Shown: piece by piece, positions 419-2,137 of the stretch | How positions within the stretch are numbered: position 1 is the first letter of the stretch | Layout of the letters: each line of letters opens with the position of its first letter | IMG/VR virus record: IMGVR_UViG_3300049855_000165 | Location: 1 to 22,276 of that record | Source of the DNA: a virus | DNA: 22,276 nucleotides | Reading direction: 5' to 3' (one strand) | Notes under the pieces: generated by a model | What the model saw: only the letters and a program-made list of their open reading frames with translations | Databases searched by the model: none | Told to the model about the DNA's origin: nothing | Made by a program: the position numbers and the translations under genes

Positions 419-926
419 GCACATCCTCGCGATCGACATCGACTTGGGAAACGTGACCGTGGTCAGCAACCGCAAAGGGGTGATCGCGCACCAGGCCGGC
501 CCCTTCAGCGGGATAAACTTCCCTGACGGGACCGACACCGTGCTGATCGAACTCGCGGGGCCGGTGATGCACCACCAGGAAAGCCACAGTCATCGGCGTT
601 GGATGATCTACAACGCCCTGGTGGGCGCGCGCATCGCGGCGGAGTTAGCCGACCATCTACCCGTCCTCGTCTCCGCGTCCACCCAGTGGACGCGGGGGTA
701 CTCCGAGGAGAAACGGCACGCCATCTCGGGCATGCTCCCCCTCAAGTACACCACGCACACGGCCACGAAGAAGGGGGTCAAGACGCAAGTCAAGTCCCCG
801 GTCTACGCGGAACCGCACGACATCCGTGAATGCCGGTGCATGATTGACTTCTACACGAAATACCCCGCCGCGTGGGTCACGATGGACGAGTACCTCGCCG
901 CGTTGGTGGAAGGACCGAAGAAGTGA
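411..926 (+). CDS. Probable RuvC-like / RNase H-fold nuclease (candidate Holliday junction resolvase)
   Basis: GTG start at 411 overlaps the previous stop (GTGAGTAA), with GAAGGG at 397-402 as ribosome site; 171 residues. The N-terminus has a hydrophobic strand ending in acidic residues (HILAIDIDLGN, D9 and D11). A second strand ends in an acidic residue (TVLIELAGP, E47). Near the C-terminus is HDIRECRCMIDFY (D137, E140, D146). This spacing of strand-Asp, strand-Glu and a late His/Asp helix is that of RuvC-type RNase H-fold nucleases of 150-180 residues, common in phages, where they resolve branched DNA before packaging. The fit is by motif layout only; a related RNase H-fold protein without resolvase activity is possible. 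It ends in an overlap with the methyltransferase start (GTGA). Confidence 0.55.
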   Translation: MSKHILAIDIDLGNVTVVSNRKGVIAHQAGPFSGINFPDGTDTVLIELAGPVMHHQESHSHRRWMIYNALVGARIAAELADHLPVLVSASTQWTRGYSEEKRHAISGMLPLKYTTHTATKKGVKTQVKSPVYAEPHDIRECRCMIDFYTKYPAAWVTMDEYLAALVEGPKK

Positions 927-1900
927 CCGCGTACTACAACGAAATCGACCCTTTCGCCGCCGATTGGCTGCGAGAACTCATCAAACAGAACCTAATCGCC
1001 CCCGGCGAAGTGGATACAAGGAGTATTGAAGATGTCAAACCATCTGACCTCGCCAAGTTCACCCAATGCCACTTTTTTGCCGGGATCGGCGGATGGTCCT
1101 ACGCACTACGTCTCGCAGGGTGGCCAGAGGATAAACCCGTGTGGACCGGATCATGCCCATGCCAACCTTTCAGCCAGGCAGGCAAAGGCGCTGGGTTTGC
1201 TGACGAGCGGCACCTATGGCCTGCCTGGTTCCATCTCGTCCGAGCGTGCAGACCTGCCCGAATCTTTGGCGAGCAGGTTGCAAGCGTCATGCCCTGGTGG
1301 GATCTTGTTTCGCCAGACCTGGAAAGCCAAGGTTACGCCTGCGGGGCGGCGGTATTGGGCGCACATAGCGTCGGCGCACCGCATATCAGACAACGATTAT
1401 ACTGGATGGCCGACGCCAACGGTTGGCAACGCAACTGGCTCACAGATGGCGAAGGACGCGAGTCCAACAGGGCGGCGACCGGACGGCAGCAAGGCAACCG
1501 TGAGCCTCAATGCGATAGCTCAGCTCGCAGCTTGGCCAACCCCAACCCCAACCTCAACCGATGCGATACGTCACCCGAGCGAGAACTTCACGACGAAAAA
1601 TATAACGCTGAATCATGCCGCAGCTTGGGCGACACCGACAACGCGGGACTGGAAGGACACCGGGGATCTGGGCAAGTCGATGTTTCGCAAAGACGGCAAG
1701 AGCAGGATGGACAAGCTAGCCTTCCAAGCTTTTGGAGTAACTGCGAATTTCTCGGGTGCCGAGACGGAAAAGCGCGGCCAGTTGAACCCGGCACATTCCC
1801 GCTGGCTCATGGGGTACCCGCCAGAGTGGGACGCTTGCGCGGCTATGGTAACGCCATCGTCCCGCAAGTCGCCGAAGCCTTCATCCGTGCGAGCGTCTGA
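923..1900 (+). CDS. dcm: DNA (cytosine-5-)-methyltransferase
   Basis: This enzyme transfers a methyl group from S-adenosylmethionine to C5 of cytosine, probably to protect phage DNA from host restriction. GTG 923 overlaps the previous stop and gives 325 residues; the frame is open further upstream, but conserved sequence begins with YYNEIDPFAADWL. Motifs with this start: motif I FFAGIGG (about 51-57, AdoMet binding); motif IV GSCPCQPFS with catalytic Cys80; motif VI as GEQV (116-119), Gln replacing the usual Asn; motif VIII HIRQRLYW (154-161) with the Arg pair; motif X GNAIVPQVAEAFI (from 309). Residues about 163-270 are a low-complexity target-recognition region that also encodes the nested ORF in another frame. 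The protein is complete and apparently active. The specificity cannot be read from the sequence, and no partner restriction enzyme is seen, so it looks like an orphan phage methylase. Confidence 0.93.
   Translation: MTAYYNEIDPFAADWLRELIKQNLIAPGEVDTRSIEDVKPSDLAKFTQCHFFAGIGGWSYALRLAGWPEDKPVWTGSCPCQPFSQAGKGAGFADERHLWPAWFHLVRACRPARIFGEQVASVMPWWDLVSPDLESQGYACGAAVLGAHSVGAPHIRQRLYWMADANGWQRNWLTDGEGRESNRAATGRQQGNREPQCDSSARSLANPNPNLNRCDTSPERELHDEKYNAESCRSLGDTDNAGLEGHRGSGQVDVSQRRQEQDGQASLPSFWSNCEFLGCRDGKARPVEPGTFPLAHGVPARVGRLRGYGNAIVPQVAEAFIRASV
1018..1023 (+). promoter_or_regulatory. Internal Shine-Dalgarno site for the nested ORF
   Basis: AAGGAG lies inside the methyltransferase coding sequence, 8 nt before ATG 1032 of the nested frame. 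A TTG at 1026 is only 2 nt away and too close to be used. The spacing and match are near ideal and do not serve the methyltransferase frame, which has no start codon there. Confidence 0.55.
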
Positions 1901-1904
1901 ATGA
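1032..1904 (+). CDS. Nested overlapping ORF inside the methyltransferase gene (WPTPT / LNPAHSRWLMGYP family), function unknown
   Basis: A 290-codon ORF lies in the +1 frame relative to the methyltransferase and covers almost 90 percent of it. ATG 1032 follows AAGGAG (1018-1023) at 8 nt, a better ribosome site than that of the host gene. Its stop TGA 1902-1904 overlaps the next gene's ATG as ATGA. The product is Ser/Thr/Pro/Ala-rich and has recurring motifs: GWPTPTVGNATG, AAWPTPTPTSTDA and AAWATPTTRDWKDTGD, then EKRGQLNPAHSRWLMGYPPEW near the C-terminus. From memory, this motif set recurs in many hypothetical phage proteins found with such methylases. The WPTPT units fall exactly where the methylase frame reads ADAN, ANPN and GDTDN. 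No enzymatic domain is recognised. Either it is a true second product, for example a methylase partner, or a frame kept open by methylase constraint; the translation signals favour the first. Confidence 0.6.
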   Translation: MSNHLTSPSSPNATFLPGSADGPTHYVSQGGQRINPCGPDHAHANLSARQAKALGLLTSGTYGLPGSISSERADLPESLASRLQASCPGGILFRQTWKAKVTPAGRRYWAHIASAHRISDNDYTGWPTPTVGNATGSQMAKDASPTGRRPDGSKATVSLNAIAQLAAWPTPTPTSTDAIRHPSENFTTKNITLNHAAAWATPTTRDWKDTGDLGKSMFRKDGKSRMDKLAFQAFGVTANFSGAETEKRGQLNPAHSRWLMGYPPEWDACAAMVTPSSRKSPKPSSVRASE

Positions 1905-2137
1905 GGCCCACCGCCCCGACAGAACCCTGCCGCGTGTGCGGCAGGATCGAGTACAAAGCTTATGGCAACGCGAAGGGGCTTTGCTCAAGCTACTGCGTCG
2001 AGCGCGATCACGCGAAGAATGGCCGGCCACCGGACCGGTTTATACCCGAGCGTCTCCTACCTTTCCAGCCCAAGCCCCTAGAAGAGGTTGCGGCGGGTCT
2101 TTGCGGGCACCGTACTTTACCCCAAGATCTGGAGTGA
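1901..2137 (+). CDS. Small phage zinc-finger protein, hypothetical
   Basis: Seventy-eight residues. ATG 1901 directly follows the methyltransferase stop and overlaps the nested ORF stop as ATGA; there is no strong ribosome site of its own, so it is probably translated by coupling. The N-terminal half has four cysteines as CxxC (C10, C13) and CxxxC (C28, C32) with His37 nearby, a likely single zinc site. The pattern of Cys pair, then AKGLC, then a basic segment ending in a Gly-Arg-Pro turn resembles small zinc-binding modules seen in phage DNA-binding and HNH-associated proteins; this is inference. The C-terminus is Pro/Leu-rich with no recognised domain. It is the last gene of the plus-strand run and abuts the convergent ejection-protein gene with no gap. 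Confidence 0.65.
   Translation: MRPTAPTEPCRVCGRIEYKAYGNAKGLCSSYCVERDHAKNGRPPDRFIPERLLPFQPKPLEEVAAGLCGHRTLPQDLE

Follow-up and report, generated by a model that had tools for sequence, protein, structure and literature searches.

Does the long reading frame nested inside a phage cytosine methyltransferase gene encode a protein, and what would such a protein do? The gene lies on an IMG/VR virus record of 22,276 bases (analyzed over its full length and referred to here as the window), whose minus-strand genes include one for a major head protein and one for a tail fibre. The initial annotation had reported a 290-codon open reading frame (ORF) in the +1 frame of the methylase, and that ORF is present with every motif quoted for it, open from ATG 1032 to the TGA at 1902-1904 (292 codons if TTG 1026 is the start). 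We put a probability of about 0.87 on the reading that a single C5-cytosine DNA methyltransferase is encoded here as two polypeptides by the same DNA, a catalytic subunit (alpha) and, judging from homology, a nested DNA-recognition subunit (beta). The two genes overlap by 869 nt on the same strand (Table 1). Alpha likely starts at GTG 923, which overlaps the stop of the upstream gene (TGA 924-926, giving GTGA), and ends with the stop codon at 1898-1900. The small ORF that follows has no family match in Pfam or PHROG and is likely carried on one transcript with beta.

Table 1. Features of the two-frame methyltransferase locus in the window.
Feature	Position	Strand	Basis
Alpha, catalytic subunit of a predicted C5-cytosine DNA methyltransferase, 325 aa, motifs I-VIII and X, lacking IX	923..1900	+	PF00145, PHROG 363, alignment A1, start/stop geometry, M.HhaI fold match
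Beta, nested +1-frame putative subunit, 290 aa, WPTP recognition region and motif IX	1032..1904	+	PHROG 1008, open and constrained in relatives, profile alignment with the TRD and motif IX region of single-chain enzymes
Internal Shine-Dalgarno AAGGAG, 8 nt upstream of ATG 1032	1018..1023	+	Sequence; conservation across loci
Alpha motif I, FAGIGG	1076..1093	+	Alignment A1
Alpha motif IV, PCQPFS, catalytic Cys	1157..1174	+	Alignment A1; aligns with M.HhaI PCQAFS
Segment that truly codes in both frames: alpha motifs VI-VIII (GEQV ... HIRQRL) and, in +1, the beta N-terminal domain (SL.SRL ... TWK ... TPAGR)	1236..1385	+	Strongest synonymous constraint, jointly with 1742-1860; predicted hairpin
Beta target-recognition region, WPTP/WATPT repeats	1407..1776	+	Profile alignment with LPTP repeats of the ShiLan gp70 type
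Alpha variable linker, predicted disordered, within the DNA of the beta recognition region	1475-1714	+	Alpha pLDDT below 50
Beta motif IX, LNPAHSRWLMGYPPEW	1782..1829	+	L251, P253 and W258 invariant in 96 sequences; aligns with single-chain EWMMGWPAGW
Alpha motif X, GNAIVP	1847..1864	+	Alignment A1; aligns with GNGVVP of ShiLan gp70
Small downstream ORF, 78 aa, ATG overlapping the beta stop (ATGA)	1901..2137	+	Start/stop geometry

Alpha belongs to the C5-cytosine DNA methyltransferases, as indicated by matches to PF00145 (E 5.6e-15, 56 bits against a cut-off of 22) and PHROG 363 (E 9.9e-76), and by the catalytic motifs I, IV, VI and VIII in alignment A1 and in a PDB profile match to M.HhaI, with motif VI reading GEQV and not ENV. 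The list of motifs first given for this frame (I, IV, VI, VIII and X) stands, and motif IX, whose absence that list implied, is indeed missing. Outside its middle, the predicted model adopts the M.HhaI large-domain fold (fold search); between motifs VIII and X the alignment is variable and residues 178-257 are predicted to be disordered, so that this part of alpha looks like a disordered linker in the model. The target-recognition region (TRD) and motif IX that belong between VIII and X are absent from alpha itself and present in the +1 frame only. The motifs of the enzyme are thus split between the two frames.

With the alpha protein alone as query, 143 non-redundant relatives of the locus were gathered from virus contigs, bacterial and archaeal species genomes and a few phage records. 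In every one of these 143 loci the +1 frame was open across 70% or more of alpha (median 92%), compared with a median of 18% for the +2 control frame; none of them breaks the beta frame, the outcome of a search for stops in homologs that the initial annotation had proposed. Synonymous codons were also shuffled within each gene, a procedure that preserves the alpha protein and its codon usage. For the window gene, only 4 of 10,000 shuffles left the +1 frame equally open, and across the set 86% of loci were individually significant for +1 versus 2% for +2. Beta-frame selection is also apparent in the codons of alpha. Among 100 representatives less than 70% identical to one another, mean codon homozygosity at 146 conserved alpha columns was 0.558 (0.354 after shuffling), and the excess was concentrated at 1235-1410 and 1742-1860. 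Several alpha codons are nearly or completely frozen there (Pro104 CCT in 97/99, Val112 GTT in 96/97, Pro282 CCC in 84/84 and Ala288 GCT in 84/84), whereas the N-terminal columns of alpha, an internal control, mostly remained close to the shuffle value. Because the shuffles disregard relatedness, this contrast between regions outweighs the z-scores as evidence. Methylase synonymous sites, the other quantity singled out beforehand for scrutiny, are frozen in the stretches over which the nested protein shows conservation. When substitutions were sorted by codon position in 69 independent pairs, they followed an alpha-like pattern in the N-terminal part and were damped at third positions in the motif VI-VIII and C-terminal parts, while the middle varied too fast in both frames to show which one leads.

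The nested beta ORF is real and under selection, as is alpha. The original claim that both frames are constrained holds overall and has to be narrowed in detail: the first ~40-65 codons of beta are weakly constrained and alpha residues ~178-257 are linker-like, so not every stretch of the overlap is functional in both frames.

The identity of beta emerges from comparison with single-chain enzymes. In C5 methyltransferases, specific contacts with DNA are the task of the small domain, which comprises motif IX and a variable recognition region (PMC3404938). Mycobacterium phage ShiLan gp70 holds motifs I-VIII, LPTP repeats, EWMMGWPAGW and GNGVVPQQ in one frame. In profile comparisons, beta aligned with gp70 residues 205-355 (P 1e-9; 3.5e-8 with a second alignment) and alpha with residues 70-168 (P 8.6e-23) and weakly with 363-385, the motif X part (P 0.004, a weak match by itself); alpha and beta profiles did not match each other. 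Alpha and beta jointly cover a single-chain enzyme. Independently, PHROG 1008, which beta matches (E 1.4e-23), also matches gp70 residues 196-388 (E 2e-61), and PHROG 363 matches both alpha and gp70. These profile and PHROG matches to the stretch with the TRD and motif IX in single-chain enzymes identify beta, at the level of sequence homology, as the small-domain half with its recognition region and motif IX. The M.HhaI counterpart, LHPRECARVMGYPDSY and then GNSVV, falls in the correct position in the alignment, non-significantly when taken alone. Searches of Pfam, NCBIfam and PADLOC with beta gave nothing useful, and a PDB sequence search and a fold search with its unreliable model (mean pLDDT 62) returned no match; the model does contain a predicted beta hairpin in the N-terminal domain (pLDDT up to 92). 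In single-chain enzymes (L256, ShiLan gp70 and relatives) the recognition region contains at least two LPTPxxxD units and sometimes several, a number that varies between relatives.

A start signal for beta is conserved within alpha. An ATG preceded by a Shine-Dalgarno match of at least 5 nt occurred in the beta frame of 85/143 loci and in 0/143 for each control frame, which favours independent internal initiation over frameshifting as the probable route to beta. The starts of beta fall in clusters at alpha residues 20-24, 30 and 86. The codons around motif VIII (R149, R151 and L152) are conserved no more than in the shuffle.

Four other explanations were weighed against the two-subunit reading. 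An untranslated chance shadow of a conserved, GC-rich methylase gene is in keeping with the lower tBLASTn identity between relatives for beta (~40%) than for alpha (~50%), as expected of a shadow too, and with the weakly constrained first 40-65 or so beta codons. It is refuted by the comparative tests, namely the codon shuffles, the synonymous constraint in beta-conserved segments, the clean control frames and the conserved internal start, and beta is moreover homologous to an in-frame part of single-chain enzymes; we give it practically no weight. Just as negligible is a single-chain methyltransferase that decayed or was misassembled through two indels. Reversing two frame changes would give back the single-chain order, and a frame disruption of the locus does occur in one Krischvirus record, but conservation refutes this account, since the two-frame layout recurs in 143 independent loci from viruses and many bacterial classes, its junctions unchanged and its synonymous codons frozen.

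The remaining two accept a selected +1 frame and differ in what it is for. Overlapping phage genes are often accessory in function as a matter of general knowledge, and beta might accordingly be a separate effector, such as an anti-restriction protein or regulator, that merely shares the methylase DNA. Both "methylase partner" and "anti-restriction factor" had been offered in the initial annotation; the former was the right guess, whereas the latter, as a separate function, finds no support, given that beta holds the recognition region (WPTP) and motif IX that alpha is missing. Beta also never occurred without alpha in 80 beta-selected loci (overlapping alpha in 80/80), and we consider a separate effector improbable. 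A shade less probable still is programmed frameshifting, by which ribosomes would move to +1 after motif VIII and return before motif X to make one full-length chain, with beta alone not a functional product. The succession of alpha motifs I-VIII, beta TRD and IX, and alpha motif X does reproduce the single-chain order. Such a chain, however, requires two opposite shifts, the codons near motif VIII, the place of the first shift, show no more conservation than expected, the feature that is conserved is a separate start with its own Shine-Dalgarno, and the conserved beta N-terminal domain over motifs VI-VIII would be left without a role.

Under the two-subunit reading, frame 0 would give alpha, an AdoMet-binding catalytic large domain with motifs I-VIII and a C-terminal motif X. 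Beta would be initiated on its own at ATG 1032 from the ribosome-binding site inside alpha and, read in the +1 frame, would supply the predicted small domain with its WPTP-repeat target-recognition region and motif IX. The two would assemble, probably while both are being translated from one mRNA, to form an active heterodimer; this would methylate phage DNA and may thereby shield it from host restriction. We infer that beta is expressed and recognizes the target and that the heterodimer is obligate; protection from restriction is likewise inferred, based on the general role of phage methyltransferases, and would be the expected effect of methylation.

Two-polypeptide C5 methyltransferases are known. 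In M.EcoHK31I the small subunit is encoded in an alternative frame inside the large gene, and M.EaeI is an enzyme of the same sort; the small subunit of the window likewise occupies an alternative frame within the large gene. M.EcoHK31I is a two-polypeptide, naturally split enzyme that methylates YGGCCR (Lee, Kam and Shaw 1995, as cited in PMC3404938; PMC3439449). Its large subunit contains motifs I-VIII and X and its small subunit motif IX (PMC3404938), the same division as in the window. Its predicted TRD has been assigned to the large subunit (PMC3404938), whereas homology places the recognition region of the window in beta. Moreover, M.EcoHK31I is part of a restriction-modification system, whereas no restriction gene was recognized beside the window gene; the adjacent small ORFs had no Pfam, PHROG or PADLOC family match, although restriction enzymes are hard to recognize by sequence. 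The E. coli relatives examined lie in prophages without a named restriction gene, and the E. coli and Klebsiella relatives examined are themselves prophage or phage-like genes and not part of a restriction-modification system. The best reading is that the window enzyme would work like M.EcoHK31I, to which it is likened by architecture and published description.

Another C5 enzyme that is split in nature is M.AquI (CYCGRG); as in the window, its larger subunit carries motifs I-VIII and its smaller one motif IX (PMC3404938). Its split is sequential and places motif X on the small subunit, whereas the small gene of the window is nested and its motif X lies in alpha; the window is therefore not of the M.AquI type, with IX and X both on the small subunit. 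Some mycobacteriophage enzymes (L285:1881-2997 and L297:1950-3102) do resemble M.AquI, with an N-terminal ORF carrying motifs I-VIII and a partly overlapping +1 ORF in which LPTP repeats, IX and X stand together. Enzymes of the ShiLan gp70 type have the same order as the window in one chain (alpha motifs, LPTP repeats, IX, X), but they are one protein in one frame and their +1 frame is not open (median 0.37). The PHROG library holds both halves under the label "DNA methyltransferase" (window alpha matches 363, beta 1008) and makes no statement that the two share DNA or form one enzyme. As window beta matches PHROG 1008, beta proteins have already been predicted in some phage genomes.

The nested arrangement is widespread and rarely annotated. 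Beta-frame matches were found in 217 phage records, and in a sample of 60 of these only ~8 had a second annotated feature or a beta label. Coliphage K1ind2 has both ORFs annotated, the nested one as "putative Mte8-like", whereas beta is unannotated in the gene 58 region of phage N15 (L261:1164-1889, ~240 aa), in the Basel-collection phage CarlMeissner and in at least two of the E. coli prophages examined. At least four alpha lineages carry the arrangement: that of the window (proteobacterial phages and many bacterial genomes), an environmental virus group, Lactobacillus phages and two further virus contigs. In the environmental group (L310-L340 and L341-L420) the +1 frame was open over at least 93% of alpha in 72/72 loci, all individually significant. 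This very common family combines a C5 methyltransferase of ~255 aa with ELALFAGAGGGILGG (e.g. L311:1921-2658 and L318:1921-2658) and a hidden +1-frame protein of ~246 aa with MSWLFSQALVEEY ... FSEWMMGWPPGWTDLK. Nesting is alike in the Lactobacillus phage group (Lc-Nu ORF40, L258:1460-2011, and L421-L445), where an unannotated +1-frame protein contains LPTPTASDG and a motif IX-like FQETMMGFPKGWTDL; the set of 24 loci also includes the distant virus contigs L447 and L448. These two share 33-36% identity with Lc-Nu alpha and have the same nested layout, its +1 frame containing LNPNWVEWLMGVPTGWT; in a catalytic-domain tree they branch apart from the Lactobacillus group. Throughout the distant nested lineages, it is the +1 frame that encodes the WPTP/LPTP and motif IX parts, with motif X once more in frame 0. 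In the single-chain controls, by contrast, frame 0 encodes motif IX and the +1 frame is not open.

We tentatively suggest, at somewhat less than even odds, that nested two-frame C5 methyltransferases form a large and old phage and prophage class, spanning at least four alpha lineages, in which recognition and catalysis are inseparable by recombination. The catalytic-domain tree did not settle whether the nested or the single-chain form is ancestral; single-chain enzymes may derive from the nested form by frame fusion and not the reverse. What is apparently new is how widely the arrangement, usually left out of annotations, extends among phages, with four or more alpha lineages carrying it: the open-access papers searched contained no description of this spread, with most subscription journals and REBASE outside the search, and specialists may know it.

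It is rare for a same-strand overlap of 869 nt to have a clear role for both products. This one can be tested, since its two halves are parts of a single enzyme that is well understood. With hundreds of loci in several lineages, it offers a natural data set on two proteins evolving on one DNA. If the enzyme is made from two nested frames, many of the phage genes that annotations present as complete orphan C5 methyltransferases probably specify just half of an enzyme; cloning such a gene would bring the hidden subunit along unnoticed, and recoding it would abolish activity. The laboratory phages N15 and CarlMeissner carry the nested arrangement.

Two records depart from the usual layout or annotation. 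In the lambda-like prophage of E. coli ECCTRSRTH03 (L456:3056-4225), alpha is annotated as two incomplete pieces (pseudogene). In Krischvirus LF73P4 (L259:1471-2326, unannotated), the N-terminal part of alpha is in one frame, the C-terminal part of alpha continues the frame of the beta N-terminal part, and motif IX (LNPRFPCWLMGYPQQW) stands in the third frame, as if a frame-changing indel had occurred in mid-locus; the displacement could be biological or a sequencing error.
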